Shown: positions 17,929 to 63,989 of the stretch, in pieces
How positions within the stretch are numbered: the stretch's first letter is position 1
Layout of the letters: every line of letters starts with the position of its first letter
Source of the DNA: Photorhabdus laumondii subsp. laumondii
Lineage (GTDB): Bacteria; Pseudomonadota; Gammaproteobacteria; Enterobacterales; Enterobacteriaceae
Reading direction: 5' to 3'
DNA: 64,000 nucleotides
Assembly: GCF_003343245.1 (NCBI RefSeq)
Contig: NZ_CP024901.1
Coordinates: 2,356,001 to 2,420,000, forward strand
The notes under the pieces: generated by a model
What the model saw: the letters and a program-made list of their open reading frames with translations, nothing else
Told to the model about the DNA's origin: nothing
The model's database searches: none
Made by a program: the position numbers and the translations under genes

Positions 17929-17955
17929 ATTAGTAAAACTCCTTTATTCTAAAGG

Positions 17956-18636: not shown

Positions 18637-18687
18637 GTTATCACTCCTTTTTCTTTAGCCTTGAAATTGGATTTTTTAATCTTATAA

Positions 18688-18897: not shown

Positions 18898-18927
18898 ATT
18901 AGTGAGAACTCCTTTGTAATCTAAGGA

Positions 18928-19608: not shown

Positions 19609-19637
19609 ATTAGTGAGATTCCTTTTTAATCTAAGGG

Positions 19638-20318: not shown

Positions 20319-20348
20319 ATTAGTAACAACTCCTTTTTAATCTAAGGA

Positions 20349-21029: not shown

Positions 21030-21058
21030 ATTAGTGAGAACTCCTTTTAATCTAATGG

Positions 21059-21739: not shown

Positions 21740-21769
21740 ATTAGTAACAACTCCTTTTTAATTTAAGGG

Positions 21770-22450
21770 TTAAGGAAACATTTTGCTTTCTGGATGCACA
21801 AACCTTTCTGGTACATAGAGATCATAATCATTGGTGCGACAATAATCTTCTAATTGACGAGTAGAATGAAGACCAATTCGTTTATATATGCGTGATATAT
21901 GGGTTTCAACCGTACGATAGGAAATATTTAACATTCTACCGATTTGCTTGCTGGTATATTTGTGTAATAGGAGGAAAATAACATCCCATTCCCGTTGAGT
22001 AAAGAGATCAGTCGGTGGTTGAAATAATATAGATGCAGGAAGTTTTCCATAAAATAGTCGAGTAAGTGAGAAATCTTGGGCTTTCCATGCATGGAGAAAG
22101 AGACCGATACATTCGTTTTCATCATTATAGATTGGATATTTTTCCGAAAAATAAGATGATAGAAATTTATCTTTCCCATATGTATGTGTTTCAAGTGAAC
22201 ATATTCTTTTCTCTTGTTTCATAACATTTTTATCGTGAATAACGAATTCTTTTGCAAATTCAGCCCCGTTCCAGGGGAGTTCACTATCATTTTTCCCTTC
22301 ATAATCAAATAAATCTGGGAGATTTTGGATTTGTCTAAATGCCAAATTACCAAAAACCCAACATGAGTTTTTGTCTTTGATTGCCCAAGGTTCATTACTT
22401 TGTTGCATAGTATTAATAACTTGAGGCGAAATAATTAATTCATTTTCCAT
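21770..22450 (-). CDS. PAS4-LuxR solo regulator (P8)
   Basis: 226 residues. Hybrid start MENELIISPQVINTMQQSNE with PWAIKD; an unusual PAS core (SCWVFGNLAFRQIQNLPDLF) and NDENECIGLFLHAW in place of EDGSCMGTIYHGW; C-terminal form B (TVETHISRIYKRIGLHST, EDYC), ending VPERFVHPESKMFP. A PAS relic lies between it and P9. Confidence 0.88.
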   Translation of the reverse strand: MENELIISPQVINTMQQSNEPWAIKDKNSCWVFGNLAFRQIQNLPDLFDYEGKNDSELPWNGAEFAKEFVIHDKNVMKQEKRICSLETHTYGKDKFLSSYFSEKYPIYNDENECIGLFLHAWKAQDFSLTRLFYGKLPASILFQPPTDLFTQREWDVIFLLLHKYTSKQIGRMLNISYRTVETHISRIYKRIGLHSTRQLEDYCRTNDYDLYVPERFVHPESKMFP

Positions 22451-22497
22451 GTTATCATTCCTCTTTCTAGCCTTAAAATTAGATATTTGATATTTAA

Positions 22498-22680
22498 CTC
22501 ACGACTACCTCAAACCCTAGGATAGTTTATAATCAAATAATTGTTTAACATTGATGAATAAATTTTTTTATCTGCATTGCTGTAGATAAAGTTTGAAGAA
22601 CTATCCGTTATTTCCCACGGTTCATTGTTCATCTCCATTGTACTAATAATCTGAGGTGATAGTGCATAGTTCTTTTTCAT
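22498..22680 (-). pseudogene. PAS4-LuxR N-terminal relic 2
   Basis: It reads from 22680 as MKKNYALSPQIISTMEMNNE, with SSSNFIYSNADKK, then loses frame; the last part still resembles the GSRELN tail of relics 1 and 3. No helix-turn-helix. Confidence 0.75.
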
Positions 22681-22710
22681 ATCAGTAAAAACTCCTTTTT
22701 AATCTAATGG

Positions 22711-23394
22711 TCAAGGAAACATTTTGCTTCTAGGTTGCACAAATCTTTTTGGCACGTAGAGATCATAATCATTGGTGCGACAATAATCTTCTAATTGACG
22801 AGTAGAATGAAGACCAATTCGTTTATATATGCGTGATATATGGGTTTCAACCGTACGATAGGAAATATTTAGCATCCTACCGATTTGCTTACTGGTATAT
22901 TTGTGTAATAGGAGGAAAATAACATCCCATTCCCGTTGAGTAAAGAGATCAGTTGGTGGTTGAAATAATATAGAAGCAGGAAGTTTTCCATAAAATAGCC
23001 GGGTGAATGAAAAATCCTGAGCTTTCCACATATGATATATAGTTCCTATGCAATCCCCGTTATCATGGTAAATAGGCGTTTTTTCACAAAAGTAAGACGA
23101 TAGAAATTTATCTTTGCCAAACAGATGTGTTTCAAGAGAACATACCCTTCCTCCTCTTTCCATTACACTTTTATCATGAGCAATAAATTCTTTTGCAAAT
23201 TCAGCTCCATCCCAGTTGAGATCATCATCATAAAGCCCTTCATAATTAAATGATTTTTTAAAATCATGAATGAACTGTTTTGTTGCTGAATTACCATAAA
23301 TAAAGCATGAGTTCTTGTCTTTTATTCCCCAAGGATCATTACTCTGCTCCATTGTATTAATAACTTGAGATGAAATAATTAATTCATTTTCCAT
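22711..23394 (-). CDS. PAS4-LuxR solo regulator (P9), mosaic PAS
   Basis: 227 residues. Start MENELIISSQVINTMEQSND. The PAS front half (FIYGNSATKQFIHDFKKSFN) is that of P2 (FIYGNSATKKFIHNFKASFD), not of its neighbours, and accounts for the one-residue longer protein. C-terminal form B, but ending VPKRFVQPRSKMFP, the form A class end. This is the clearest mosaic of the array. Confidence 0.88.
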   Translation of the reverse strand: MENELIISSQVINTMEQSNDPWGIKDKNSCFIYGNSATKQFIHDFKKSFNYEGLYDDDLNWDGAEFAKEFIAHDKSVMERGGRVCSLETHLFGKDKFLSSYFCEKTPIYHDNGDCIGTIYHMWKAQDFSFTRLFYGKLPASILFQPPTDLFTQREWDVIFLLLHKYTSKQIGRMLNISYRTVETHISRIYKRIGLHSTRQLEDYCRTNDYDLYVPKRFVQPRSKMFP

Positions 23395-23436
23395 GTTATC
23401 ATTCCTCTTTCTAGCCTTAAAATTAGATATTTGATC

Positions 23437-23634
23437 TTATAATCTATTTAACTCACGACTACCCCAAACCCTAGGGTAGTTTATAATCAAATAATTGTTT
23501 AACATTATGAATAAATTTTTTTTATCTGCATTGCTGTAGATAAAGTTTGAAGAACTATCCGTTATTCCCCACGGCTCATTGTTCATCTCCATTGTATTAA
23601 TAATCTGAGGAGAGATAACATAGTTCTTATTCAT
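23437..23634 (-). pseudogene. PAS4-LuxR N-terminal relic 3
   Basis: MNKNYVISPQIINTMEMNNE, SSSNFIYSNADKK, then a frameshift and stop after 65 codons. Very similar to relics 2 and 4-6; it keeps its ribosome site. Confidence 0.8.
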
Positions 23635-23664
23635 ATTAGTAACAACTCCTTTTTAATCTAAGGG

Positions 23665-24345
23665 TTAAGGGAGCATTCTGCTTCCAGATTGCACAAATCT
23701 TTTTGGCACATAGAGATCATAATCATTGGTGCGACAATATTCTTCCAATTGCCGACTGGAATGAAGACCAATTCGTTTACATATGCGTGAGATATGATTT
23801 TCAACCGTACGGTAGGAAATATTTAACATTATACCGATTTGCTTATTGGTATATTTTTGTAACATCAGGAAAATAACATCCCATTCTCGTTGAGTAAAGA
23901 GATCAGTCGGTGGTTGAAATAATATAGAAGCTGGAAGTTTTCCACGAAATAACCGAGTGAATGAAAAATCCTGAGCTTGCCAAGCATGATATATCGTTCC
24001 CATACAACTTCCGTCTTCATGGTAAAAAGGATATTTTGCACAAAAGTAGGATGACAGAATTTGTTCTTTCCCAAATACATGTGTCTCTAGTGAACACACT
24101 CTTTCTTCTTTCTCCATCACTTTTTGATCATGAGCGATGTATTCCTTGGCAAATTCGGCTCCATCCCAAGGTATTTCATCATCATAAAACCCTTCAAATT
24201 CAAATGAACTTGAAATATTCTTAATAGATTTTAATGCCAAATTACCATAAATAAAGCATGAATTTTTATCCTTTATTCCCCAAGGATCATTACTTTGCTC
24301 TAATGTATTAATAACTTGAGATGAAATAATTAATTTATTGTCCAT
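23665..24345 (-). CDS. PAS4-LuxR solo regulator (P10)
   Basis: 226 residues. Start MDNKLIISSQVINTLEQSND; PAS core FIYGNLALKSIKNISSSFEF with FYDDEIPWDG; C-terminal form A, ending VPKRFVQSGSRMLP. Its last 80 or so residues match P11 almost exactly, while the linker (PASILFQPPTDLF) is that of form B genes. Confidence 0.88.
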   Translation of the reverse strand: MDNKLIISSQVINTLEQSNDPWGIKDKNSCFIYGNLALKSIKNISSSFEFEGFYDDEIPWDGAEFAKEYIAHDQKVMEKEERVCSLETHVFGKEQILSSYFCAKYPFYHEDGSCMGTIYHAWQAQDFSFTRLFRGKLPASILFQPPTDLFTQREWDVIFLMLQKYTNKQIGIMLNISYRTVENHISRICKRIGLHSSRQLEEYCRTNDYDLYVPKRFVQSGSRMLP

Positions 24346-24362
24346 GTATTACTCCTTTTTCT

Positions 24363-24475
24363 TTAGCTGCATTGCTGTAAATAAAGTTTGAAGAACTATC
24401 CGTTATTCTCCACGGCTCATTGTTCATCTCCATTGTATTAATAATCTGAGGAGAGATAACATAGTTCTTATTCAT
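24363..24475 (-). pseudogene. PAS4-LuxR N-terminal relic 4
   Basis: MNKNYVISPQIINTMEMNNE through SSSNFIYSNAAK, about 38 codons, joined directly to the ribosome-site region of P10 (AAAGAAAAAGGAGTAATAC). The join shows a deletion from within the PAS to the leader of the next gene. Confidence 0.75.
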
Positions 24476-24505
24476 ATTAGTAACAACTCCTTTTTAATCT
24501 AAGGG

Positions 24506-25186
24506 TTAAGGGAGCATTCTGCTTCCAGATTGCACAAATCTTTTTGGCACGTAGAGATCATAATCATTGGTGCGACAATATTCTTCCAATTGCCGACTGG
24601 AATGAAGACCAATTCGTTTACATATACGTGAGATATGATTTTCAACCGTACGGTAGGAAATATTTAACATTATACCGATTTGCTTATTGGTATATTTTTG
24701 TAACATCAGGAAAATAACATCCCATTCCCGTTGAGTAAAGAGATCGGTCGGTGGCTGGAACATAATATTGGCTGGCAATTTTCCACGAAATAGTCTGGTG
24801 AATGAGAAATCCTGAGCTTGCCAACCATGATATATCGTTCCCATACAACTTCCGTTTTCATGATAAAGAGGATATTTTTCAAAAAAATAAGATGAAAGAA
24901 TTTTTTCTTTTCCAAAAGTATGTGTTAAAAACAAACATACTCTTTCTTCTTTTTCCATCACCTTTTGATCATGAGCGATGTATTCTTTGGCAAATTCGGC
25001 CCCATCCCAAGGTAACTCATGCTCATAAAGTCCTTCAAATTCAAATGAACTTGAAAAATTCTTAAGAGATTTTAATGCCAAATTGCCATAGATAAAGCAT
25101 GAGTTTTTATCCTTTATTCCCCACGGGTCATTACTTTGCTTCAATGTATTAATAACTTGAGATGAAATAATTAGTTTATTGTCCAT
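24506..25186 (-). CDS. PAS4-LuxR solo regulator (P11)
   Basis: 226 residues. Start MDNKLIISSQVINTLKQSND; PAS core FIYGNLALKSLKNFSSSFEF with LYEHELPWDG; patch VCLFLTHTFGKEK; linker PANIMFQPPTDLF; C-terminal form A, ending VPKRFVQSGSRMLP. Together with relic 4 and P10 it forms a recent tandem duplicate unit. Confidence 0.88.
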   Translation of the reverse strand: MDNKLIISSQVINTLKQSNDPWGIKDKNSCFIYGNLALKSLKNFSSSFEFEGLYEHELPWDGAEFAKEYIAHDQKVMEKEERVCLFLTHTFGKEKILSSYFFEKYPLYHENGSCMGTIYHGWQAQDFSFTRLFRGKLPANIMFQPPTDLFTQREWDVIFLMLQKYTNKQIGIMLNISYRTVENHISRICKRIGLHSSRQLEEYCRTNDYDLYVPKRFVQSGSRMLP

Positions 25187-25202
25187 GTATTACTCCTTTT
25201 TC

Positions 25203-25315
25203 TTTAACTGCATTGCTGTAAATAAAGTTTGAAGAACTATCCGTTATTCCCCACGGCTTATTGTTCATCTCTATTGTATTAATAATCTGAGGTGATAGTG
25301 CATAGTTCTTCTTCA
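25203..25315 (-). pseudogene. PAS4-LuxR N-terminal relic 5
   Basis: MKKNYALSPQIINTIEMNNK, ITDSSSNFIYSNAV, cut at the same place as relics 4 and 6 and joined to the leader of P11. Confidence 0.75.
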
Positions 25316-25346
25316 TATCAGTAAAAACTCCTTTTTAATCTAATGG

Positions 25347-26027
25347 TCAAGGAAACATTTTGCTTTCTGGATGCACAAACCTTTCTGGTACATAGAGATC
25401 ATAATCATTGGTGCGACAATAATCTTCTAATTGACGAGTAGAATGAAGACCAATTCGTTTATATATGCGTGATATATGGGTTTCAACCGTACGATAGGAA
25501 ATATTTAACATTCTACCGATTTGCTTGCTGGTATATTTGTGTAATAGGAGGAAAATAACATCCCATTCCCGTTGGGTAAAGAGATCAGTCGGTGGTTGAA
25601 ATAATATAGAGGCAGGAAGTTTTCCATAAAATAGTCGGGTGAATGAAAAATCCTGGACTTGCCAACCATGAAATATCGTTCCCATACAACTTCCGTCTTC
25701 GTGGTAAAGAGGGTATTTTTCACAAAAATAGGATGACAGAATTTGTTCTTTCCCAAATAGATGTGTTTCGAGTGAACATATCCTTTCTTTTTCTTCCATC
25801 ACTATTTTATCTTGAGTCACATGTTCTTTAGCAAATTCAGCACCATTCCAAGGAATTTCATCATCGAAAAGCCCTTCATAGTTAAAAGAATTTGGAACAT
25901 TATGAAGAGATTTTAATGCCAAATTAACATAAATAAGGCATGAATTCTCATCTTTTATTCCCCAAGGATCATTACTCTGCTCCATTGTATTAATAACTTG
26001 AGATGAAATAATTAGTTTATTGCTCAT
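25347..26027 (-). CDS. PAS4-LuxR solo regulator (P12)
   Basis: 226 residues from the ATG at 26027, which follows AAGGAGTAATAAC; a longer frame from 26057 would run into P13 and lacks a ribosome site. Start MSNKLIISSQVINTMEQSND; PAS core CLIYVNLALKSLHNVPNSFN with HVTQDKIVMEEKER; C-terminal form B, ending VPERFVHPESKMFP. P13 lies directly upstream with 26 bases between and no relic. Confidence 0.88.
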   Translation of the reverse strand: MSNKLIISSQVINTMEQSNDPWGIKDENSCLIYVNLALKSLHNVPNSFNYEGLFDDEIPWNGAEFAKEHVTQDKIVMEEKERICSLETHLFGKEQILSSYFCEKYPLYHEDGSCMGTIFHGWQVQDFSFTRLFYGKLPASILFQPPTDLFTQREWDVIFLLLHKYTSKQIGRMLNISYRTVETHISRIYKRIGLHSTRQLEDYCRTNDYDLYVPERFVHPESKMFP

Positions 26028-26053
26028 GTTATTACTCCTTTTTAATCTAATGG

Positions 26054-26734
26054 TCAAGGAAACATTTTGCTTCTAGGTTGCACAAATCTTTTTGGCACGT
26101 AGAGATCATAATCATTGGTGCGACAATATTCTTCCAATTGCCGACTGGAATGAAGACCAATTCGTTTACATATGCGTGAGATATGGTTTTCAACTGTACG
26201 GTAGGAAATATTTAACATTATACCGATTTGCTTATTGGTATATTTTTGTAACATCAGGAAAATAACATCCCATTCCCGTTGAGTAAAGAGATCGGTCGGT
26301 GGTTGGAACATAATATTGGCTGGCAATTTTCCATGAAATAACCGGGTGAATGAGAAATCCTGAACTTGCCAACCATGAAACATCGTTCCCATACAGCTTC
26401 CGTCTTCGTGATAAAGAGGGTATTTTTCAAAAAAATAAGACGAAAGAATTTGTTCTTTTCCAAATTTATGTGTTAAAAGCAAACATATTCTTTCTTCTTT
26501 TTCCATCACTTTTTGATCATGAATGATATATTCTTTGGCAAATTCGGCCCCACCCCAAGGAATTTCATCATCGTAAAGTCCTTCATAGTCAAAAGAGCTT
26601 GAAATGTTTTGAAGATGTTTACATGCTTGATTGGCATACATGAAGCGTGAGTTTTTATCCTTTATTGCCCACGGGGCATTACTCTGCTCCATTGTATTAA
26701 TAACTTGAGATGAAATAATTAGTTTATTGTCCAT
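26054..26734 (-). CDS. PAS4-LuxR solo regulator (P13)
   Basis: 226 residues. Start MDNKLIISSQVINTMEQSNA with PWAIKD as in P7; PAS core RFMYANQACKHLQNISSSFD; PWGGAEF replaces PWDGAEF; C-terminal form A, ending VPKRFVQPRSKMFP. Relic 6 lies upstream. Confidence 0.88.
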   Translation of the reverse strand: MDNKLIISSQVINTMEQSNAPWAIKDKNSRFMYANQACKHLQNISSSFDYEGLYDDEIPWGGAEFAKEYIIHDQKVMEKEERICLLLTHKFGKEQILSSYFFEKYPLYHEDGSCMGTMFHGWQVQDFSFTRLFHGKLPANIMFQPPTDLFTQREWDVIFLMLQKYTNKQIGIMLNISYRTVENHISRICKRIGLHSSRQLEEYCRTNDYDLYVPKRFVQPRSKMFP

Positions 26735-26753
26735 GCTATTACCCCTTTTTCTT

Positions 26754-26865
26754 TAGCTGCATTGCTGTAAATAAAGTTTGAAGAACTATCCGTTATTCCC
26801 CACGGCTCATTTTCCATTTCCATTGTATTAATAATCTGAGGTGATAGTGCGTAGTTCTTCTTCAT
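26754..26865 (-). pseudogene. PAS4-LuxR N-terminal relic 6
   Basis: MKKNYALSPQIINTMEMENE, ITDSSSNFIYSNAAK, truncated at the same point as relics 4 and 5. Confidence 0.75.
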
Positions 26866-26894
26866 ATCAGTAAAAGCTCCTTTTAATCTAAGGA

Positions 26895-27572
26895 TCAGGG
26901 AAACATTCTGCTTTCTGGATGCACAAACCTTTCTGGTACATAGAGATCATAATCATTGGTACGGCAATAATCTTCTAATTGACGAGTAGAATGAAGACCA
27001 ATTCGTTTATATATGCGTGAGATATGGGTTTCAACCGTACGATAGGAAATATTTAACATCCTACCGATTTGCTTACTGGTATATTTGTGTAACATCAGGA
27101 AAATAACATCCCATTCCCGTTGAGTAAAGAGATCGGTCGGTGGTTGGAACATAATAGATGCCGGCAGTTTTCCATAAAATAGCCGGGTGAATGAGAAATC
27201 CTGAGCTTGCCAACCATGAAATAGAATCCCCATGCAGCTACCATCTTCATGATAAATAGGTAGCTTTTCAAAAAAATAGGATGACAGAATTTGATTTTTC
27301 CCATATACATGCGTTTCAAGTGAACACACTCTTTGTTCTTTTGTCATTACAGTTTTATCATGAGTAATAAATTCTTTTGCAAATTCAGCTCCATCCCAGG
27401 GAATTTCATCATCAAAAACTCCTTCATAGTCAAAAGAATTTGAAAGATTTTGGAGGGTTTTAAATGATTGATTAGCATAAATAAAGCATGAGTTCTTGTC
27501 TTTTATTCCCCAAGGATCATTACATTGCTTCATTGTGTTAATGATTTGCGATGAAATTATCTTGTTACTCAT
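26895..27572 (-). CDS. PAS4-LuxR solo regulator (P14)
   Basis: 225 residues. Start MSNKIISSQIINTMKQCND; PAS core FIYANQSFKTLQNLSNSFDY with VFDDEIPWDG; patch VCSLETHVYGKNQ; C-terminal form B, ending VPERFVHPESRMFP. First gene of the closely related block; 55 bases separate it from the divergent P15. Confidence 0.88.
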   Translation of the reverse strand: MSNKIISSQIINTMKQCNDPWGIKDKNSCFIYANQSFKTLQNLSNSFDYEGVFDDEIPWDGAEFAKEFITHDKTVMTKEQRVCSLETHVYGKNQILSSYFFEKLPIYHEDGSCMGILFHGWQAQDFSFTRLFYGKLPASIMFQPPTDLFTQREWDVIFLMLHKYTSKQIGRMLNISYRTVETHISRIYKRIGLHSTRQLEDYCRTNDYDLYVPERFVHPESRMFP

Positions 27573-27627
27573 AGTATCATTCCTTTTTCTAGCCTTAAAA
27601 TTAGCTTATTGATATTTAATTTTGTAA

Positions 27628-28320
27628 TCAATTTAATTCCACACTGCCGATAGTGACAAATCTTGCAGGAATATAAGCGTCAAGTTTATTTTCTTTACAG
27701 AAATCTTTTAATTCTTCGTGTAATGATAAATTGAATTTTTGGTAGATTGACTGAATATGATTAACCACATCTTCGGCACTTATCATTAACGCTTCACCGA
27801 TTTTCTCTTCATCTAATGAACGTAGCGTTAGAAAGAGAACTTCCCATTCAGTTTGTGTCAATTTGTCATTAGGGGCGATAAATTCCAACGTTGCCGGAGG
27901 GGTTTTATCATAATAGTAGGCAGTAGAAAAGTTTTTGGTTTTGCACATATGAAAAGTGAGCCCAATACAATTGCCATCTTCATCGCAAAGTGGGTATTTA
28001 TTACAAAGATAGATTTGCTTAATCTTATGTTCTTCAAATGGATGCGTTTCTAGTGAACTAACACGTTGCATAGTTTGAAGAACTTTTTGATCCTGACGAT
28101 GGAATTCTTTTTCATATTCTGCAATAGGTGAGGGTAATTCACCTGTGGTAAGCCCGGTAATCTCGAAATCGTCAGGTAAATTGTGTAGTTGATAAAAAGC
28201 GGAATTGGCGTAAATAAATCTCGATTGGAGATCTTTAGCTCCCCAAGGTTCATCACTGTTTTCCCACATATGAATTAATTGTGGGGTGATATTATTAGGT
28301 CTATTTTTTATATGTTGCAT
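27628..28320 (-). CDS. PAS4-LuxR solo regulator (P15), WENS subgroup
   Basis: 230 residues. Start MQHIKNRPNNITPQLIHMWE; PAS4 core RFIYANSAFYQLHNLPDDFE; the helix-turn-helix (LTQTEWEVLFLTL..GEALMISAEDVVNHIQSIYQKF) differs strongly from forms A and B, notably SAEDVVNH for SYRTVENH. Closest to the partial gene at 1-210. It is the most upstream gene of the 16.4-28.3 kb minus-strand run, so its 5' region may drive the whole array. Confidence 0.85.
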   Translation of the reverse strand: MQHIKNRPNNITPQLIHMWENSDEPWGAKDLQSRFIYANSAFYQLHNLPDDFEITGLTTGELPSPIAEYEKEFHRQDQKVLQTMQRVSSLETHPFEEHKIKQIYLCNKYPLCDEDGNCIGLTFHMCKTKNFSTAYYYDKTPPATLEFIAPNDKLTQTEWEVLFLTLRSLDEEKIGEALMISAEDVVNHIQSIYQKFNLSLHEELKDFCKENKLDAYIPARFVTIGSVELN

Positions 28321-29100
28321 TAGTGACTCCTGAATGATTATTTCAGTTGTTATCTGACATGTTTGCTAACTAATTATACTTAAAATGCCTTGGTAATATA
28401 ATAGAATATAATAACTTGCTCGTCAAAATACATATATTTATTAATTAAACCTTTTATTGTTATATAGTGATACTTTTAACATTAATGAATATAACTAAAA
28501 ATACTATTTAGTATAAAAATATTTTAGTTAACTTATTAAACAGCAAAATTAATGAATAAATTTTTTAAGTCATGAATAATTAAGTGACGTAGATCAAAAC
28601 TTTCTGTCATTAATCGAAGCGTGAAGGAGCGGTTGTTATAACGATGATAGGTAATAGAATGAAAAAGAAGGCGTTATTTTTGGCGCGGGATAATGGCGAA
28701 AAAATGACATTTAATCGGAATAATATTCGATCAATTAAAGAATGCTTTTTAAACGGCGTATTTAGAGCATTGTAATTAGATAAACTATATTTTGGAATTA
28801 TCAGAATAATCAACTAAATAGAGTTTTCAATCTAAAAACCGAGTTTGAATTTTCCTACTGCTGACAATAGCTATTCTTAAATAAAATTAAGGTTAGGTAA
28901 ATTCTATGAAATTAAATTATCGAAGAATAATTAAGTAAAAAACTTACTTAAAATGGTATAGCCCAAGATATAAAGTTGTATTTCAAGTTCCACTTAGATG
29001 TTTGCCACCATCACGTTCTTACTCTATTTCCCACAGTTTGTATCAATGATTTTCTGCTTTGACAGTGCCGGCGAGGTAACGTCGGAGGCAAAAAATTGAC
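28321..29100. other. AT-rich region upstream of P15, no clear gene
   Basis: The part next to P15 shares motifs with the leaders at 211-410 and 32221-32400 (a TATCTGA-like word, then TTAATTAAA). The rest shows no convincing gene. A 43-codon frame at 28644-28775 (MIGNRMKKKALFLARDNGEK) is possible but unsupported. Confidence 0.4.
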
Positions 29101-29520
29101 CTGATTTTCATTATCAAGGCGAAGAGGACGAATTAAATCGGTATCACCTGAGTAAAATTGCGGAACGGTCCGGTAAGGCGCTGACTCGTATTCGCTTTCG
29201 TTGGATCAGAGATGAAAAAAACGGAAAGATGACGGTTCAGGGCTATCATGTCAGCCCGGAAAGTGGTTTGGATAACGTGCTGGTTCGTATGATGAGATTG
29301 AATCCGACTACCGGTAATTATGAATTCTGGGAGCCGGGAGAAAATCGACCGACGATTTTATGGACGCCGAATGAACAGGAATGCAAGGCTCCACCGCATA
29401 CCGGAAATGAAGAGCAGTCGTTTATTCCGTCGTAAATAACCGTATTACCAATCCCGGATAAAGAGGGTAGTGATATTGAATCGCTGCCAATGCCAGAAGA
29501 GAAGGATTTCCGTGATTATA
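29101..29520 (+). pseudogene. S-type pyocin/colicin fragment cut by an ERIC element
   Basis: The frame from about 29120 reads GEEDELNRYHLSKIAERSGK and then YHVSPESGLDNVLVRMM, NYEFWEPGENRPTILWTP and PHTG, as in the translocation domain of S-type pyocins. After a stop at 29435 another frame continues with LPIPDKEGSDIESLPMPEEK and RDYI, where ERIC element 4 begins. The receptor-binding start and the killing domain are missing. The assignment is from memory of the Pyocin_S domain pattern and is moderately certain. Confidence 0.55.
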
Positions 29521-29645
29521 TACCCGTTATCCTTCAAGTTGCCTCTTTGTTGGCTGCGCTCGCTCACCCCAGTCACATAGTTACCTATGCTCCCGGGGAT
29601 TTACTCCCTTGCCGTCGCGATGCATCTTGAAATCCATAGGGTATA
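29519..29645. repeat. ERIC element 4
   Basis: A full 127-bp copy, inserted in the last recognisable codons of the pyocin fragment at a TA. Confidence 0.92.
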
Positions 29646-29750
29646 TCCCTAATATGATGTTTTTAAATGAAATATTTAAACAGGGCGGATTATTTTCTCC
29701 ATTAATAATGGATAAGGGTAATATGTAAAAACTAGGAATAAATACGTAAT

Positions 29751-30419
29751 TTAAGACAATAAAAACTTTTCCGGTATATAGTAATTAAAATTATTGGCTC
29801 GACAATACGCTTCCAGTTGTTGGCTGGAATTAATTCCTATCTTACGGTATATCCGAGTCATATAATATTCAATAGTGCGATAAGCTAGATTCAGTATCCG
29901 CCCAATCTGCTTTCTGGTATTTTTCTGTAAAAAGAGGAAAATGATATCCCATTCACGGTGAGTAAAAAGATCCGTTGGTGGTTGCAGCATAATTGAGGCC
30001 GGTAGTTTGTCGTGGTATTGATGTAAATAGGCTAATGAATAGTTTTTTGCTTTCCAACCATGATATATGACTCCGATGCAATCTCCATCTTTATGGTAAA
30101 AAGGTGATTTTTCGAAAAAGTAAGACGATAGGATTTGCTCTCTGCCAAATATATGGGTTTCGATTGAACATATTCTCTGCTGTTTTTCCATTACCTTTTT
30201 ATCATGATTAATAAATTGTTCCGCAAATTTAGCGCTATCCCAAGGAAGTTCATTTTCATAGGCCCCTTCAAATTCAAATGAATTTGAAAAGTTCTGAAGA
30301 GATTTTAATGCTAGATTACCGTAAATAAAGCATGAGTTTTTATCTTTAATTCCCCAAGGCTCGTTGCTTACTGCCAATGTATTAATAACTTGAGATGATA
30401 TAGCTATGCGATTACTCAT
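29751..30419 (-). CDS. PAS4-LuxR solo regulator (P16), FLLS subgroup
   Basis: 222 residues from the ATG at 30419 (AAAAAGGAATTATAAT in front); a longer frame from 30473 adds an unconserved leader. Start MSNRIAISSQVINTLAVSNE; PAS core FIYGNLALKSLQNFSNSFEF; linker AYLHQYHDKLPASIMLQPPT; helix-turn-helix GRILNLAYRTIEYYMTRIYR, where YYM replaces the THI/NHI of the main block; ends IPEKFLLS. Close to P2 and P17 but separated from the array by the pyocin remnant. Confidence 0.85.
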   Translation of the reverse strand: MSNRIAISSQVINTLAVSNEPWGIKDKNSCFIYGNLALKSLQNFSNSFEFEGAYENELPWDSAKFAEQFINHDKKVMEKQQRICSIETHIFGREQILSSYFFEKSPFYHKDGDCIGVIYHGWKAKNYSLAYLHQYHDKLPASIMLQPPTDLFTHREWDIIFLFLQKNTRKQIGRILNLAYRTIEYYMTRIYRKIGINSSQQLEAYCRANNFNYYIPEKFLLS

Positions 30420-31125
30420 ATTATAATTCCTTTTTACCCATTTTGGGTTTAAGTTGTGATATGTTTGAATCATATTATCAGTTTAATACTTTATTATCAG
30501 TAATAATAGACTTTTTCAGAAAATAATTATTGTGGCTATTTTTATTACGAGAATTGTTTAGTTGTGCATGCCATTATAGATTTAATTTGAGGTAAATTTT
30601 CTTAATATAATTAACCGTGTTTTCTATAATGGATGAGAGTAATTTATCAGTTGAGAATCGATCAATTTTACACAGATAAATTAGTTCAATAATGATATTA
30701 TTTAAATGATTTATTTGTTTGTGATATTTAAAATAGCTGTGTTTTATGATGGAAAAAAGCCAATTCTTTCTGCTGATTAAATTTATTTTTATTTAAGATG
30801 TGAACTTTAAATATGAGTAACTGTAACAGGAAATAATTATTTTTCTAAAAATAAAATAGGCGTAATTGTTGCAGGCAGTTTGAACACGGACAGCGCGGAA
30901 AAACCGGAGCGTACACGTAGTACGTGAGGATTTTGAGCACTGCCCAGGTTCAAAATGGCAAATAAAATAGCCCTATTGAGATAGGCAGTAAACTGTTTAT
31001 ATAACTGATGTTTCTAATATATGAAAATTGTGTCGGTATAATTTTCATATATTACCTGTATCATACCGACAGCGATAAACTATTTAATCATGTTTTTTAT
31101 GACTAAAAAATAGTAAATAAAATTA
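30420..31125. other. Intergenic region between P16 and P17
   Basis: About 700 AT-rich bases. It contains the 136-bp palindromic repeat at 30856-30991 and an inverted repeat near 31025-31060 (GAAAATTGTGTCGGTAT and TATAATTTTC). Part must serve as promoter for P16. No gene seen. Confidence 0.4.
30856..30991. repeat. Palindromic MITE-like repeat, copy 1
   Basis: It begins TAGGCGTAATTGTTGCAGGC and ends CCCTATTGAGATAGGCAGTAA. The core contains a CACGTAGTACGTG palindrome and GAACACGGACAGCGCGG. The same sequence occurs at 44289-44448, there with a complete left end (GCCTATCTCAATAGG) forming a terminal inverted repeat. This copy lacks the first dozen bases and the GCTCTTTATGGCAAAGAAGG insert. Confidence 0.75.
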
Positions 31126-31800
31126 TTAAAATAGTAAAAATTTTTCGGGTACATAACGTTTAAAATTGTTGATGAGACAATATTCTTCCAGTTGTTGGTT
31201 GGAATCAACACCTATCTTATGATATATATTGGCCATATGGGATTCAATTGTACGGTAAGAGATATTTAATATTTTTCCAATCTGTTTCCTGGTATATTTT
31301 TGTAAAAAGAAGAAAATAATATCCCACTCACGTTGGGTAAAAGTATCTGTTGGTGGTTGAAATATAATAGATGTGGGGAGAACGTTATAATATTGATATA
31401 AGTTTATTAATGAAAAATCTTTGGCTTTCCATCCATGAAAAAGTATGCCTATACATTCCTTTGCATCGTTATATAGTGGTAATTTTTCTTGGAAGTAAGA
31501 CGATAAAATGTTTTCTTTTCCATATGTATATGTTTCAAGTGAACAGATTCTTTTCCCTTTTGTCATTACAATTTTATCATGATCAATAAATTCTTTTGCA
31601 AACGCCGCTCCACCCCAAGGAAGTTCGTCATCAAAAAGCCCTTCATAATCAAATGATGTTGGAATGTTTTGAATAGATTTTAGGGCCGGGTTACCATAAA
31701 TAAAGCGTGAATTTTTATCTTTGATTCCCCACGGTTCATTGCTTGCTTCCATTGTGTTTATTATTTGTGATGAAATGTATGTTCCATTAATTTTTTTCAT
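31126..31800 (-). CDS. PAS4-LuxR solo regulator (P17), FLLF subgroup
   Basis: 224 residues. Start MKKINGTYISSQIINTMEAS; PAS core RFIYGNPALKSIQNIPTSFD; linker INLYQYYNVLPTSIIFQPPT; helix-turn-helix GKILNISYRTIESHMANIYH; ends VPEKFLLF. It stands alone, 30 bases downstream of an ERIC element that covers its presumptive upstream region. Confidence 0.85.
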   Translation of the reverse strand: MKKINGTYISSQIINTMEASNEPWGIKDKNSRFIYGNPALKSIQNIPTSFDYEGLFDDELPWGGAAFAKEFIDHDKIVMTKGKRICSLETYTYGKENILSSYFQEKLPLYNDAKECIGILFHGWKAKDFSLINLYQYYNVLPTSIIFQPPTDTFTQREWDIIFFFLQKYTRKQIGKILNISYRTIESHMANIYHKIGVDSNQQLEEYCLINNFKRYVPEKFLLF

Positions 31801-36119: not shown

Positions 36120-36267
36120 GTGCACTGCCGTACAGGCAGCTTAGAAAATACAACTAACATAGCGAGATAATCATGACAGGTGCACTGCCGTACAGGCAGC
36201 TTAGAAAACCTTTTAGTTATGAGGGTGTGCGTTTTTATTGTGCACTGCCGTACAGGCAGCTTAAAAA
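36120..36267 (+). CRISPR. Short CRISPR array 1, type I-F repeat (3 repeats, 2 spacers)
   Basis: 28-bp repeats at 36120, 36180 and 36240, period 60, with 32-bp spacers. The repeat begins GTGCACTGCCG, contains the CTGCCGTACAGGCAG palindrome and ends TTAGAAA, as in type I-F systems. The last repeat is degenerate (TTAAAAA), marking the leader-distal end. Directly after it a decayed tail-fibre 3' end begins. No cas gene lies in the window. Confidence 0.9.
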
Positions 36268-36707: not shown

Positions 36708-38189
36708 ATGAGTCAAAAAAATGATTTTAAAGCTTTTTCTATTAGCGATAATGCTAATGTAATTAGCCAAGAAAAATATGAAGAAAATCAGAATTTGCAG
36801 ACTGGGTTTCCACAAGATGGTATTACCACTGATATGCTAAATAAGGCATTACGTCAGTCTTCCACGATATCCTCTGTAGTCGCTAATTTTATCGCTACAC
36901 AATCTGGCAATGATGTTCTGGATGATGGGAATATAGAGAAACTCACCAGCCAATTAAATAGAGCGCTGGAACAGAAAATGACAATAAAGGTTCCTGATGC
37001 TTCATTAACACAGAAAGGTATTGTTCAACTTACAAATGTGGTTGGCAATAGCAATACATTGGCGGTTACACAAAAACTTGCTCAGGAAATAATAAATTCA
37101 TTACGTGAAGAAATTAATATACCTGTGGGTTCCCCCATTCCGTGGCCGTTACCCTATCCACCTGTCAACTATCTCGTTTGTAACGGTGCATTTTTCAATA
37201 AATTGCAGTACCCAAAGTTAGCAGAAGCTTATCCTGACGGCAGATTGCCCGATCTAAGGGGAGAATTTATCCGTGGCTGGGATAGTGGGCGAAATGTGGA
37301 TCCATCTCGTTCAATATTGTCATGGCAGGAAGGGGCTTATTTGGTACAGAATGTTGATCGGGCTAATAATTTTATGATTACCCTCTCACGCAATGAGTTT
37401 GCAAAATTGCAGTGGGATATTCCACAAAATAAAAATACTTCGGTAAAAGCTGTATATTATAAAGCTCAGGCAGACTGGATTGCGAATTCCGCATTTATAG
37501 GGGTATCGAGGCCCCGTAATATAGCATTTAACTACATAGTGAGAGCAGCAGCATGCAGCATAATGACAGAACAAAAATACGCGTTAGAACATGAAACCGC
37601 TGTATTGGGTGAAGACGGATTAGCAATTCAACCCGGTTGGATAAAAGTTTATCACACGAATCAAATAACAAGAGAATTTATTAACGCTGGTATTGAATAT
37701 GTCATGCTCGGTGTCAGTTTATCAGCACATTCTTATTTAGATGCACCAGACTTTCCCGATTCTGATGATGTGGCTGTTTGTCGCAGTGAAGACGGTAAGT
37801 GTTGGGAGATCGTCCCTGATTATCGGGGGAAAATAGCTTACGACACGTTAACATTAACTCAACAGAAAATCACTGAACTGGGTGAATTACCTGAAACTCT
37901 GACCTTCAAGCAACCGACCACCGGTTTTGATAAATGGGATGGCACAAAATGGGTCACTGATAATGTAGCTCTAAAAGCAAATCAAATTGAACAAGCGGAA
38001 CAGCAGCGTGTAACTCTGTTGCGACACGCGAGTGAATCCATTGCATTACTGCAAGATGCTGTTGATTTAAATATCGCTACCGAAGTAGAAAAATCCGCCT
38101 TACTGACATGGAGAAAATATAGGGTAATGCTCAATAGAGTAAATATTTCATTGTCTCCCGATATTGAATGGCCGGAACAGCCGAGGTAA
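36708..38189 (+). CDS. Fused tail fibre and tail-fibre assembly protein, cassette 2
   Basis: 493 residues. Residues 1-95 anchor region (FKAFSISDNANVISQEKYEE), residues 97-130 ASLTQKGIVQL repeat, residues 138-283 collar domain ending RPRNIAFNYIVRAAA. Then, without a stop, MTEQKYALEHETAVLGEDGL and the assembly-protein domain (GWIKVYHTN, SYLDAPDFPD, WEIVPDYRGKIAYDT, FDKWDGTKWV). The same two parts are separate genes at 47738 and 48479. The collar part is shortened compared with cassette 1 and lacks the GFGFDTSRVVP segment. Natural fusion or sequencing artefact cannot be told apart here, but the frame is clean across the join. Confidence 0.82.
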   Translation: MSQKNDFKAFSISDNANVISQEKYEENQNLQTGFPQDGITTDMLNKALRQSSTISSVVANFIATQSGNDVLDDGNIEKLTSQLNRALEQKMTIKVPDASLTQKGIVQLTNVVGNSNTLAVTQKLAQEIINSLREEINIPVGSPIPWPLPYPPVNYLVCNGAFFNKLQYPKLAEAYPDGRLPDLRGEFIRGWDSGRNVDPSRSILSWQEGAYLVQNVDRANNFMITLSRNEFAKLQWDIPQNKNTSVKAVYYKAQADWIANSAFIGVSRPRNIAFNYIVRAAACSIMTEQKYALEHETAVLGEDGLAIQPGWIKVYHTNQITREFINAGIEYVMLGVSLSAHSYLDAPDFPDSDDVAVCRSEDGKCWEIVPDYRGKIAYDTLTLTQQKITELGELPETLTFKQPTTGFDKWDGTKWVTDNVALKANQIEQAEQQRVTLLRHASESIALLQDAVDLNIATEVEKSALLTWRKYRVMLNRVNISLSPDIEWPEQPR

Positions 38190-38243: not shown

Positions 38244-38993
38244 ATGAGTCCCAAGAATGATTTTAAAGCTCTCTCTGTTATTAATAATAAAAACATAGTG
38301 AGTCAAGAGAAATATAAAATAAGTTCGGATTTGCAGACAGAGTTTCCTTCAAATGATGTTCACTCTCATTTGTTAAATAAGGCGTTGGATCAATCATCAA
38401 CTATATCAGCCGTCATAGCTAATTTTATTGCGGAACAATCTGGCGAGGATGTTTTAGATAATGGTGATATAACCAAGCTTACCGCTCAATTAAATAAAGC
38501 ATTAGAACAGAAAATTTCAGATACCTCTAACATTCCTGTCGGTATTCCTGTTCCTTGGCCGACTGCCGTGCCGCCTGCTGGGTGGTTGCAGTGTAATGGG
38601 GCGGTCTTTGATAAGTCGAAATTTCCGAAATTAGCAGAAGCTTATCCTGATGGTAACTTACCTGATTTGAGAGGAGAATTTATTCGGGGTTGGGATGATA
38701 GACGAGGTATTGATAGTGGCCGTAGAATTTTAACGCATCAGGGGGATGCTATCCGAAATATTCAGGGTTCGTTCGCCGGCATGATAGCACTAAATTATCA
38801 TTTGGCAACAAGAGGGGCTTTTTATGCTAGTCAAGTTCTTGGAATAGCGACAGATGGCAGTTTCAAATCGATAAATATTTCTGACACAGATACTCCATAC
38901 GGCTTTGGGTTCGAGGCGTCAAGGGTTGTTCCTGTAGCCTCAGAGAACCGCCCTCGCAACATAGCATTTAATTACATAGTGAGAGCGGCGTAA
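38244..38993 (+). CDS. Phage tail-fibre/collar protein, cassette 3
   Basis: 249 residues. The anchor region is more diverged (MSPKNDFKALSVINNKNIVS), the ALTQKG repeat is absent, and the collar domain follows at residue 95 (IPVGIPVPWPTAVPPAGWLQ). The last 90 residues resemble cassette 1 closely (LTHQGDAIRNI, GFGFEASRVVPVASENRPRN), as does the DNA beyond the stop up to the CRISPR leader, so the 3' half was copied between the two. AAGGAGGACAT precedes the ATG; the full conserved leader is missing. Confidence 0.85.
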   Translation: MSPKNDFKALSVINNKNIVSQEKYKISSDLQTEFPSNDVHSHLLNKALDQSSTISAVIANFIAEQSGEDVLDNGDITKLTAQLNKALEQKISDTSNIPVGIPVPWPTAVPPAGWLQCNGAVFDKSKFPKLAEAYPDGNLPDLRGEFIRGWDDRRGIDSGRRILTHQGDAIRNIQGSFAGMIALNYHLATRGAFYASQVLGIATDGSFKSINISDTDTPYGFGFEASRVVPVASENRPRNIAFNYIVRAA

Positions 38994-39199: not shown

Positions 39200-39827
39200 G
39201 TGCACTGCCGTACAGGCAGCTTAGAAAACAGCCGGAAAATTAATGGCAAAGCATTAAGTGTGCACTGCCGTACAGGCAGCTTAGAAACGTAATTTCCTGC
39301 TTATCATTACTCTTTAAAGGTGCACTGCCGTACAGGCAGCTTAGAAATACGTTTGCACTCTTCTATATAGTGAGGGTTAGTGCACTGCCGTACAGGCAGC
39401 TTAGAAACGTAATTTCCTGCTTATCATTACTCTTTAAAGGTGCACTGCCGTACAGGCAGCTTAGAAATACGTTTGCACTCTTCTATATAGTGAGGGTTAG
39501 TGCACTGCCGTACAGGCAGCTTAGAAATGATGCCGACGAACGGCAACAATGCCGGTGATGTGCACTGCCGTACAGGCAGCTTAGAAATTTGAAAACTCCC
39601 TGAAGCAATGGCGTGACCGGTGCACTGCCGTACAGGCAGCTTAGAAAAACTTCTCCCGCACACAAAGGGAGAGTGGGCGGTGCACTGCCGTACAGGCAGC
39701 TTAGAAATAGAAATCCTTGAATATAGTCAGACCCGTAATGCGCACTGCCGTACAGGCAGCTTAGAAAAACTTCTCCCGCACACAAAGGGAGAGTGGGCGG
39801 TGCACTGCCGTACAGGCAGATTAGAAA
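39200..39827 (+). CRISPR. CRISPR array 2, type I-F repeat (11 repeats, 10 spacers)
   Basis: Repeats start every 60 bases from 39200 to 39800, 28 bp each, with 32-bp spacers. The repeat at 39740 begins GCGCACTG, and the last (39800) has CAGATTAGAAA in place of CAGCTTAGAAA, so the leader is on the left. Spacers 2 and 3 (39288, 39348) recur as spacers 4 and 5 (39408, 39468), a tandem 120-bp duplication. Spacer 8 (39648) recurs as spacer 10 (39768). Spacer 1 (39228-39259) translates to SRKINGKALS, a tail-fibre motif. No cas genes are present in the window. Confidence 0.95.
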
Positions 39828-60465: not shown

Positions 60466-61308
60466 TTATTCTATACAAAGCGCTCTTACGTTACTTCCTT
60501 GCTTTCTCCGAGTGGTCATACTGTCAATCCAATCTTCTAATGATACCTTCTGTGCTTTCTCGAATGCGGGCCTTACATTTACCCATGATTCGTACCTTAG
60601 GTTATATTCTGCTTGTGGCAGGAAGTAATGAGATTTGAATTCGATAAGACCTTTATCATCTTCGTAAGCGATGATTGAAAACTCAGACCAATACAAGAAG
60701 AATGACACGCCACCTCTTGGTGATGTAGCAAGAACACTTTGTACGAAATTGGATTGAGTTTGCCTTCTACCAGCATAAGATAATGCAGCGATAGCCAATT
60801 GTCTCAGTGGGGTTTTCATCTGCTCTCTCTCCTGACTCGATAATCCTAGGAAGTTTTCCAGGAAAGAGTTGATCAAAACATCGGCATCATGGCTTTTTTG
60901 AATAACATTTTGTGTACTTGTTGACAGTAAAGAAAGGAATGGAACGCCAGATAATTCTGCTGTAAATGAGAAGAAATTCTTTTTATTACCTTGGCCTTGA
61001 GGATCTAAAGGATTATAGCCTGAAACCGCACGGCACATATTAATAACAGTTTGCAAGCCTTCGGTAATGCTGAGTGGGTTTTTAGAGGGTGAGGCAGAAT
61101 CTTTTGCCAACTGGGTATAATTTCCTGTAGCTGCGCCATTCGCTGGGCTCTGTACATCAGAATAATCGCCAGCCTCAGGATACTCCATAATAATATTACC
61201 TGAGCGTTCCCAATCTTTAAGGAGCCTTGTGCCTCCTTTTTCAATATGTTCTATCCATTCTTGGGCTTTTTTAACTGCATAATCAGGATTATTTAAGATA
61301 TTTTCCAT
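60466..61308 (-). CDS. Unknown protein, paralogue A
   Basis: 280 residues, cytoplasmic-looking, no signal peptide or membrane helix. It is homologous over its length to the protein at 63183-63989: shared NILNN/DILTN start, SDVQSPANGAAT, SITEGLQTVINMCRAVSGYN, GVPFLSLL, SHDADVLINSF, FKSHYFLPQAEYNL and WIDSMTT. The last residues (KQGSNVRALCIE) have no counterpart and lie against an ERIC element, so the end may have been altered by that insertion. An AAGGATAAAAATC ribosome site is present. I do not recognise the family; the repeated-gene setting suggests an accessory function. Confidence 0.75.
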   Translation of the reverse strand: MENILNNPDYAVKKAQEWIEHIEKGGTRLLKDWERSGNIIMEYPEAGDYSDVQSPANGAATGNYTQLAKDSASPSKNPLSITEGLQTVINMCRAVSGYNPLDPQGQGNKKNFFSFTAELSGVPFLSLLSTSTQNVIQKSHDADVLINSFLENFLGLSSQEREQMKTPLRQLAIAALSYAGRRQTQSNFVQSVLATSPRGGVSFFLYWSEFSIIAYEDDKGLIEFKSHYFLPQAEYNLRYESWVNVRPAFEKAQKVSLEDWIDSMTTRRKQGSNVRALCIE

Positions 61309-61329: not shown

Positions 61330-61581
61330 TATACCCGTTATCTTTCAAGTTGCTTCTTTGTTGGCTGCACTCTCTCACCCCGGTCACAGAGTTATCTATA
61401 CCCTTCATCTTTCAAGCTGCTGCTTTGTTGGCTGCGTTCACTTACCCCAGTCACATAGTTATCTATGCTCCTGGGGATGCGTTCTCTTGCCGCCGCACTG
61501 CAACTTGAAATCTATTGGGTATATGCTCCCGGGGATTCGCTCCCTTGCCGCCGCGATCCATCTTGAAATCCATAGGGTATA
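61330..61581. repeat. ERIC element 13, with another ERIC inserted in it
   Basis: The outer element spans 252 bases: its left part is 61330-61400 and its right part resumes at 61522 (TATGCTCCCGGGG). The inner copy at 61397-61523 interrupts GTTATCTATGCTC. Removing the inner 125 bases restores a 127-bp ERIC. It lies in the leader of paralogue A. Confidence 0.92.
61397..61523. repeat. ERIC element 14, inserted inside element 13
   Basis: A full-length but more diverged copy (TATACCCTTC ... TGGGTATA). The junctions read GTTATCTA/TACCC and GGGTA/TATGCTC, as expected if a 123-bp core entered at a TA that was duplicated. Confidence 0.9.
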
Positions 61582-62046
61582 TTAAGTTAAGTATTGAATG
61601 TTAGGGTACTGTTGAAAGTAGGGAACAATGTTGAACCCTATTTTTAACAGTGAGATAAATCGATAATCATGTACTTAATATTACTGTTTTTTTAGCTTGG
61701 TAATTTTTATTTTAAATTTTTGTTAATAAGTGTTAAATATATTTTTGTATGAACTAAGTATATCCATAAGTGGATGTTTTTCACTATCAAATATTAAGGG
61801 TATGTAATTTAACTTATTCCTCACGGATAAATGTTTTTTTATGTGATATTTTCATATTAATAGTAAAATACTGCTTGTGAAATTTATCGATTTGAAATTC
61901 ACATTTTGAGATAATTCATTTTTATATATATTGATCGTATGTTCTATTCTTTATGTTATATTTGTCTATTCTCCTTTAATTTAATGGTTTTATTGAATAA
62001 CTATGATGAGAATAATATCAGCACATATTGGTAATAATGTTATTGA
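61582..62046. other. AT-rich stretch before the insertion sequence
   Basis: About 465 bases with no open frame or RNA that I recognise. Confidence 0.4.
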
Positions 62047-63147
62047 TATACCCAAGAAACTTCAAGATGCAGTTTTTAGCACCTGAAAATGGTCGTTAAT
62101 TCTAGACATCAGCGAGTCCGCTATATCCGGTAGCGTTGTGGTGAAAAATTTGAAGACGTTGTCTCGAAATTCATGTTTATCCGCGAAATAACGGTTATTT
62201 CGAACCTGTTCATTCATGACCTTCCATAATCGTTCTATCGGGTTTAAATTTGGACTATAGGGAGGAAGGTAATGTAACTCAATATTGCTAACATAAGCCC
62301 ACTCCTTCACAAGATGAGCTTTGTTGTAACCCGCTCCATCCACAATAAGGTGAATTTTTTGATGATAGTCAGGATAAGACTTTCTTATTTCATTGAAAAA
62401 ACAGCAAATGTTGTAGTCGTTGATGGTCTGATATTCCTGGAACACCGTACGACCAATGGCATTCAGGTTGAGGGCACCCAATATATTCAGGCGAGTCCGG
62501 CTTCCTGTTGTTTTGACGGTTTTTTTCTCGCCTTTTCGCATCCAGCCATAACTGAGTTTGGTGCCTTGAGTCGGGTGAACAGCATCAAGAAAAAGGATGG
62601 GTTCGTCTTTCGCTGTGACTTTAAGATTCTCATAATATTCAATAAATTGTCGCTGTTTTTCTGCGTCGAATTTATGAGGGACGCCACAAGGTTTTTTATA
62701 AGAAAAACCCTGACGGTGTAGCCATTTATTCATGCCGGGAATGCTAAAGGTAATATTCCAGAGCTGAGCAACATAGGCCACGATTTCATGGGTGTGATGG
62801 AAAAGATGTTGAGATAAGTGATTGATTAAAAAATCAGTTTGTTCTCGGGAAAGCAAACTATCAGACCCTCCATTATCAGATTTAAGTTTACCTTGATTAA
62901 GGTAATCACTGATATGGCGGTCAACGGTGGTCTGATGGAGTCGCAATGCCTGGGCTATCATCACAGAACTCCACCCTTCAGAAGCCAGAAGGATCGCTTT
63001 TATTCTGTCTCGTACCTGACCATCACGAGTGGTGTCGTGAAGACGTTCAAGTTTGATTTTTTGTTCTGATGTAATAAATATTTTCATAGCGAGGATAATG
63101 ATCTCCATTTCGGATAAAATCAAGCATCTTCAATGATTACGGGTATA
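62047..63147. mobile_element. IS630-family insertion sequence with ERIC-like ends
   Basis: The ends are TATACCC-AAGAAACTTC-AAGATGC (left) and, reversed, TATACCC-GTAATCATTG-AAGATGC (right). The mobile core is probably 62049-63145 (1097 bp) flanked by duplicated TA, the target of this family. It contains one transposase gene and separates the two unknown paralogues. The same end pattern is found in the ERIC elements of the window. Confidence 0.88.
62062..63087 (-). CDS. IS630-family transposase
   Basis: 341 residues from the ATG at 63087 (MKIFITSEQK), the usual start; a frame from 63123 begins inside the terminal repeat. N-terminal helix-turn-helix domains (residues 20-75, WSSVMIAQALRLHQTTVDRH), then the DDE nuclease with Asp168 (ILFLDAVHPTQ), Asp250 (HLIVDGAGYNK) and Glu285 (YSPNLNPIERLWKVMN); the last two are 35 apart as in the Tc1/mariner-IS630 superfamily. 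It appears intact and so possibly active. The stop codon lies inside the left terminal repeat. Confidence 0.93.
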   Translation of the reverse strand: MKIFITSEQKIKLERLHDTTRDGQVRDRIKAILLASEGWSSVMIAQALRLHQTTVDRHISDYLNQGKLKSDNGGSDSLLSREQTDFLINHLSQHLFHHTHEIVAYVAQLWNITFSIPGMNKWLHRQGFSYKKPCGVPHKFDAEKQRQFIEYYENLKVTAKDEPILFLDAVHPTQGTKLSYGWMRKGEKKTVKTTGSRTRLNILGALNLNAIGRTVFQEYQTINDYNICCFFNEIRKSYPDYHQKIHLIVDGAGYNKAHLVKEWAYVSNIELHYLPPYSPNLNPIERLWKVMNEQVRNNRYFADKHEFRDNVFKFFTTTLPDIADSLMSRINDHFQVLKTAS

Positions 63148-63182: not shown

Positions 63183-63989
63183 TTATGCTTTCATTTTGGT
63201 TGTCATACAATCAATTAAATACTCTATGGTTATCTTATCTTCTTTCTCGAATACTGATCTTACTATTTCCCACGTTTTCTGGCTGAGATTATATTCTGCC
63301 TGGCAAAGATTATAATGAGAGGTGAATTTAATAGTACCCTTGTTATCTACTTTCTTTATTATCAATATAGAAGAATAGAGTAAGAGTGACACCCCATTTG
63401 GGGTTTTAGTCAGAGCATATTGCACCAGATTGGATTTTTTTTCCTTTTGATCGGCATATGATAAAGCGGTATGAATCAACTTTTTCAAATAAATCTTAAT
63501 AGTAATTTTATCCTGAGGAGATAACCCTTGAAAGGCTTCAACAAAAGAATCGATCAAGACATCTGTGTCATGACTTTGTTGAGTAATCGTATTTGTGTCT
63601 GCCCATAGTAAAGAGAGAAAGGGAACCTTTTCTATTTCTTCTGTGAATGCTGTGAATTTCTGCGCATTGCCATTACCTTCCGGTTCCAGCGGGTCATAAC
63701 CTGAGGCCACTCGACATAAGTTAATGATAGTTTGCAGCCCTTCAGTGACACTGACTGGGTATTTATTTGATGTGGCCGATTTCTTGGCGAATAGTGTGTA
63801 TTTATTTGTCGCGGCTACACTGGCTGGACTTTGTATATCAGAAAGATTCTCAATTTCTAAGAAATGAGTAAAAATGTTATCTGAATGTTGCTGCGTTTTA
63901 GAATATTTTTCTCCTCTGTGTTTAACGTATTCTCTCCACTCTTGGACAGTTTTAATTTTATGATCAGAATTTGTGAGTATATCTTTCAT
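63183..63989 (-). CDS. Unknown protein, paralogue B
   Basis: 268 residues starting MKDILTNSDHKIKTVQEW, homologous to paralogue A (SDIQSPASVAAT, SVTEGLQTIINLCRVASGYD, VPFLSLLWAD, SHDTDVLIDSF, YNLCQAEYNL, LIDCMTTKMKA). No signal peptide, membrane helix or catalytic motif is obvious. It is AT-rich. The two genes probably arose by tandem duplication and were then separated by the insertion sequence. Function unknown. Confidence 0.75.
   Translation of the reverse strand: MKDILTNSDHKIKTVQEWREYVKHRGEKYSKTQQHSDNIFTHFLEIENLSDIQSPASVAATNKYTLFAKKSATSNKYPVSVTEGLQTIINLCRVASGYDPLEPEGNGNAQKFTAFTEEIEKVPFLSLLWADTNTITQQSHDTDVLIDSFVEAFQGLSPQDKITIKIYLKKLIHTALSYADQKEKKSNLVQYALTKTPNGVSLLLYSSILIIKKVDNKGTIKFTSHYNLCQAEYNLSQKTWEIVRSVFEKEDKITIEYLIDCMTTKMKA

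Follow-up and report, generated by a model that had tools for sequence, protein, structure and literature searches.

ERICs of Photorhabdus share their end sequences with CCC-type IS630 elements and resemble MITEs of that subfamily

ERICs are among the best known bacterial repeats and form the basis of ERIC-PCR typing. For Photorhabdus TT01, Zamora-Lagos et al. (2018; PMC6267812) described ERIC as a MITE related to CCC-type IS630 elements. In the excerpts of that paper, the closest described system, MITEPlu5 with ISPlu3, ISPlu8 and ISPlu19, comprises an ERIC-like 123-bp MITE of Photorhabdus, present in TT01 as 552 complete copies, whose ends resemble those of CCC-type IS630 elements and whose target is TA. 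MITEEc1, the E. coli ERIC, belongs to the same repeat family and appears as an IS630-family MITE in passages of PMC11434687 and PMC10903355. A first-pass annotation of the locus studied here held that the source transposase of ERIC is usually left open; with the 2018 link in Photorhabdus and the filing of MITEEc1 under IS630, that statement is out of date. In the portion of a 2024 review that was available (PMC10969869), the term IS630 is absent, and the available parts of PMC3049150, PMC3091717, PMC2759123 and PMC9323374 do not make the ERIC–IS630 link. Experimental movement of ERIC by a transposase was not found in the accessible parts of the open-access literature, which is no proof of absence.

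The ERIC–IS630 link is, then, already known. Because it has been in print since 2018, our contribution lies in testing it more sharply and more widely, and no discovery is claimed. What we add is a correspondence that is mostly end for end, similar ends in ISEc40 and at 31 loci from other genera, the finding that ERIC is commoner than the transposase, and the finding that the interiors are unrelated.

We analyzed a 64-kb stretch of Photorhabdus DNA (the window), in which a complete CCC-type IS630 element lies beside ERICs (Table 1). ERIC was recognized as a 127-bp repeat (both TA included) with a conserved core and many copies. The segment 61330-61581 consists of two ERICs in the same orientation, the second having entered the first at its central TA, with nhmmer matches to model positions 1-70 and 68-127 on either side of the full match. 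Sampled stretches L040, L038 and L175 also contain three end-to-end ERIC pairs, one of them with a partial copy.

Table 1. Coordinates of the ERIC and IS630 features in the window
Feature	Position	Strand	Remarks
Outer ERIC	61330..61581	+	Left half ~61330-61398, right half ~61522-61581; split by the second ERIC at its central TA
Inner complete ERIC	61397..61523	+	123 bp (61399-61521) with TA on both sides; 127 bp including both TA
CCC-type IS630 element	62047..63147	-	Includes the target TAs; element proper 62049-63145, 1097 bp
IS630 family transposase, 353 aa, open frame	62062..63123	-	TTG start in the ORF list, followed by in-frame ATGs
IS-R, IS end downstream of transposase, TATACCCAAGAAACTTCAAGATGC	62047..62070	+	Similar to ERIC right end (17/22 counted from TACCC)
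IS-L, IS end upstream of transposase, TATACCCGTAATCATTGAAGATGC	63124..63147	-	Similar to ERIC left end (18/22 counted from TACCC)

The ERIC/IS630 stretch is bracketed by ORFs 60466-61308 and 63183-63989, which seem to be related, sharing 71% DNA identity across 101 bases, with the proteins compared by eye; one has a weak DUF4847 match below the cut-off and the other no family match. Elsewhere in the window, the minus strand carries a long array (16414-31800) of similar-sized ORFs of 223-240 aa, and the three tested match PAS_4 plus LuxR-type GerE. Many copies of a ~409-bp segment (29113-29521), 81-95% identical to it, are listed for genomes of the genus; the segment ends where an ERIC begins, and looks like a remnant of repeated coding sequence. 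CRISPR repeat arrays (Rfam CRISPR-DR4) at 36120-36267 and 39200-39827 bracket ORFs 36708-38189 and 38244-38993.

The transposase scores 250 bits against NCBI model NF033545 for IS630 transposases (cut-off 100) and has Pfam matches to DDE_3 (PF13358; E 3.2e-38) and HTH_33. Its catalytic residues form what we take to be a DD34E motif, the spacing having been read by eye, and no solved structure is similar to it by sequence at E 0.01. Named relatives of the protein are mostly from Photorhabdus. A DDE transposase of IS630 type and a duplicated TA target place the element in the IS630 family. Thirty-one full-length copies of the CCC type were found in the genome, all 1097 bp long and all with TA on both sides. 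Twenty-eight form an A/B group, 94-100% identical to the window copy, and the remaining 3 a C group, 69% identical to it over the part aligned. Identical copies fall into sets of 15, 5 and 3, with eight copies single, so multiplication has been recent; among the 11 distinct sequences, one carries a shortened frame. The same genome contains a second IS630 type, with AATAA ends, of which 13 copies were examined.

The ends of the IS630 element (62047-63147) and of the ERICs had been proposed to follow the common design TATACCC-N10-AAG(A/T)TGC with identical spacing, and the window sequence contains all four ends in exactly this form. The ERIC ends read TATACCCGTTATCTTTCAAGTTGC (from 61330, + strand) and TATACCCAATAGATTTCAAGTTGC (from 61523, - strand). 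The pattern TATACCCN10AAGNTGC occurs at 22 sites in the window, 2 of them the IS ends and 20 at the ends of full or partial ERIC matches. Genome-wide (5.69 Mb; 5,687,677 bases in a single contig), there are 411+407 sites on the two strands, compared to 0+0 for the reversed pattern. Less apt was the description of the ten intervening bases as variable: the majority ERIC-left sequence, GTYATCTTTC, and the IS-left sequence, GTAATCATTG, agree at 7/10 positions, and most positions of the ERIC ends are nearly constant. The latter profile was drawn from 79 full-length ERICs and is based on 56 copies of 123 bp; 20 copies in which one end or both lacked a recognizable TACCC were left out, and hence its TACCC is conditioned.

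We then compared the ends over 22 positions counted from TACCC, with the two commonest 22-mers (22/59 and 21/59) representing the ERIC ends. The ERIC left end agreed with the upstream IS end at 18/22 positions and with the downstream IS end at 15/22; for the ERIC right end, the figures were 17/22 (downstream) and 14/22 (upstream). With TACCC removed, same-end identity was 13/17 (left) and 12/17 (right), and the printed shuffle P value was 0.0000 (≤1/20,000). Since same ends outscore crossed ends, the ten "variable" bases carry signal. Ends of the resident C group matched the same ERIC ends at 16 and 16 of 22 positions. The expectation that ERIC ends would fit this IS (17-18/22; crossed 14-15) better than shuffled sequence or the ends of the AATAA-type IS630 (6-8/22) was thus confirmed. 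Among 851 TACCC sites in a 464-kb sample, 147 of the 151 ERIC-like sites matched IS ends at 11-14 of 17 positions, compared to ≤10/17 for 697 of the 700 non-ERIC-like sites; of the other three, one was at 11 and two, presumably IS ends, at 17.

On these sequence comparisons, we think it very probable that ERICs are MITEs and that their outer ~22 bp are the sites at which CCC-type IS630 transposases would bind and cleave. A transposase of this type, supplied in trans, would cut at the TACCC termini, and ERIC would enter a TA, which would be duplicated. Given that ERIC shares its end signals with the complete IS630 element beside it, the enzyme of that element probably moves ERIC; more generally, we infer that CCC-type transposases bind and move it.

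Which member of the clade is concerned is a separate matter. IS ends from ISEc40, Grimontia, a Legionellaceae bacterium and a methanotrophic endosymbiont (a hand-picked subset of 79 transposase-relative loci; L081 dropped) match the same ERIC ends at 15-19/22 positions. Summed same-end scores exceed crossed-end scores for 6/6 CCC-type IS against the Photorhabdus ERIC and for 6/7 against a consensus of ERICs from 31 loci of other genera. The exception is the methanotroph IS, at 22 versus 23 against the latter consensus, which counts against ERICs being MITEs of this clade. The other-genus consensus, for which our own genus, duplicates and partial matches were left out and some genera entered twice, agrees with our own A/B ends at 25/34 positions (0/5000 shuffles). 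A better fit of ERIC ends to the IS of their own genome was not evident (by eye, in G166 only, for the IS left end). Because ISEc40, Grimontia and Legionellaceae have ends that fit ERIC roughly as closely as the resident ends do, these data identify the subfamily and not the individual source. The earlier suggestion that ERICs are relatives of the resident IS630 element accordingly holds at the level of the subfamily and does not extend to derivation from this particular element, other clade members matching about equally.

These equal matches are in keeping with a narrower account, compatible with the one preferred here, in which ERIC was built and spread by another, older or unsampled member of the clade, and the resident IS came late, whether or not they can still move it. 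We give this account an even chance. In a family-wide draw of 149 genomes, ERIC was found in 76 and a close transposase in 4, our own genome being counted in both (transposase cut-off E 1e-70; ERIC by BLAST with one Photorhabdus consensus; many small, reduced genomes). The 72 of 76 ERIC-bearing genomes that lack a close transposase count against the clade-level MITE reading as well. An order-level draw of 197 genomes, again including our own, gave ERIC in 19 and the IS left-end pattern in 3. In E. coli, the ERIC query found places in 5375/5426 genomes, and the IS query gave any match in 955/5426 and a match over 80% or more of its length in 554/5426; the E. coli IS matches, among the ten listed, are named ISEc40. 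With searches of this sensitivity, ERIC has a far wider distribution than the transposase. Co-occurrence itself was rejected as evidence, being too weak: ERIC is present in 4/4 genomes with the transposase (own included) and in 72/145 without.

Copy ages also favor a source other than the resident IS, the copies of which are much more alike than those of ERIC. Mean pairwise identity among ERICs is 91.7%, with 2 identical pairs among 84 copies, so most ERICs look older than the present IS copies, a further point against the preferred reading. On the other hand, ERIC-like positions vary between close Photorhabdus strains, with 47 indels between two strains according to the available part of PMC6267812, and ERIC positions vary between sister species in a genus where the IS type is common. 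Both observations argue against the resident IS being mere late arrivals.

End variants were also seen outside Photorhabdus. At the 31 other-genus ERIC loci, 26% of left ends and 29% of right ends carry a base other than C at the fourth position. Several ERIC copies, including E. coli L160, have TACAC at both ends, as if the ends had changed together. When one exact left-end pattern was sought in 149 genomes, no IS with a TACAC left end fitting the TACAC-ended ERICs was found (0/149).

Both elements had been thought to insert at TA, and this is what we see, for all 31 full-length IS copies and for 84 of 88 ERICs with placed ends. The ERIC sample comprised 102 full-length matches from a hand-chosen 644 kb (~11% of the genome), 14 of which were dropped because their ends could not be placed; excluding TA, 79 of the 88 are 123 bp long. 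Joining the flanks of 23 ERICs, from the window and from syntenic stretches of sister species, and seeking them in other genomes gave clean single-TA empty sites in sister species for 5/23. One further ERIC was nested, its "empty sites" being other ERICs, 2 more reported empty sites were unclear, with gapped junctions, and 15 gave none; this comparison used one stretch of ≤20 kb per relative, so most window ERICs had no syntenic partner in it. Targets are embedded in TATA in 29/31 IS and 43/84 ERIC cases, compared to 6311/45558 for all TA sites. We considered this preference as a specific link between ERIC and the IS and rejected it: AATAA-type targets are TATA-embedded in 5/13 cases, and the lack of specificity counts against the preferred reading.

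Inside the ends, the likeness stops. Local alignment of the ERIC and IS interiors scored 16, compared to a shuffle mean of 17.8, with 274/300 shuffles scoring at least as high. On these grounds we rejected the candidate view that ERIC arose from this IS by internal deletion: with unrelated interiors, ERIC is not a recognizable internal deletion of the element, and its interior reflects either ancient divergence or the joining of ends to other DNA. A match confined to the outer ~22 bp, with differing interiors, could also be read as convergence, in which TA-inserting elements come to share end motifs, with ERIC either immobile or dependent on an unrelated enzyme for its movement. We regard convergence as very unlikely. 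The AATAA-type IS630, which inserts at TA in the same genome, resembles ERIC ends at only 6-8/22 positions, 12-13 of the 17 positions beyond TACCC match in the CCC type, and ERIC empty sites exist. We likewise see scant prospect for a purely positional association, whereby IS630 lands at TATA supplied by ERIC ends and the two often touch: 8/31 IS copies do adjoin an ERIC end (at a distance of 2 bp in one case), but this exceeds the TATA-only expectation (8 versus 2.2; P = 0.001, a post hoc test conceived after the flanks were seen), and position leaves the 17-18/22 end identity unexplained.

Shared ends, a common TA target and precise empty sites uphold the MITE reading at the subfamily level, and our data support the view that ERIC behaves, at that level, as a MITE of the CCC-type IS630 clade. 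Counted in its favor are the end-for-end likeness (mostly), identical spacing, TA duplication, empty sites, and an intact, recently multiplied IS. ERIC is short (123 bp), has no transposase gene, has ends matching those of an autonomous element and duplicates the same target; its interior does not derive by deletion from the autonomous element. Many MITEs, however, lack an interior derived from an autonomous element, and so we do not treat this feature as defining. As RNA, the ERIC consensus folds into a strong hairpin (-43.1 kcal/mol, z -4.87).

Somewhat more speculatively, enterobacterial ERICs may constitute one ancient MITE family, mostly without an enzyme, that is remobilized whenever a genome acquires a CCC-type IS630, for example ISEc40 or the element described here. 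The incoming enzyme would treat each ERIC end, left or right, as the corresponding end of its own element, and the IS would in turn use ERIC ends as landing sites. We offer this picture tentatively and would not yet favor it. The analysis does name a concrete enzyme clade for ERIC movement, including an E. coli member, ISEc40.

How does this locus compare with the known systems? For the Photorhabdus pair MITEPlu5 and IS630, the available text of PMC6267812 differs from our account in that end-for-end polarity, a shuffle test, other genera and the excess of ERIC over transposase do not figure in it. MITEEc1 differs from the ERICs of the window in its termini, the one E. coli copy compared (L160) having TACAC and not TACCC at both ends. 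ISEc40 is a CCC-type IS630 with 73% DNA identity to the window element over its full length and closely similar ends, although it is patchy in E. coli, as the 955 and 554 of 5426 genomes given above indicate. The pneumococcal RUP, which we liken by description, is a different repeat (107 bp) in another host; yet it too, in the part of PMC2229807 available, is a MITE with a proposed IS630 mover, IS630-Spn1, with matching ends and insertion at TA.
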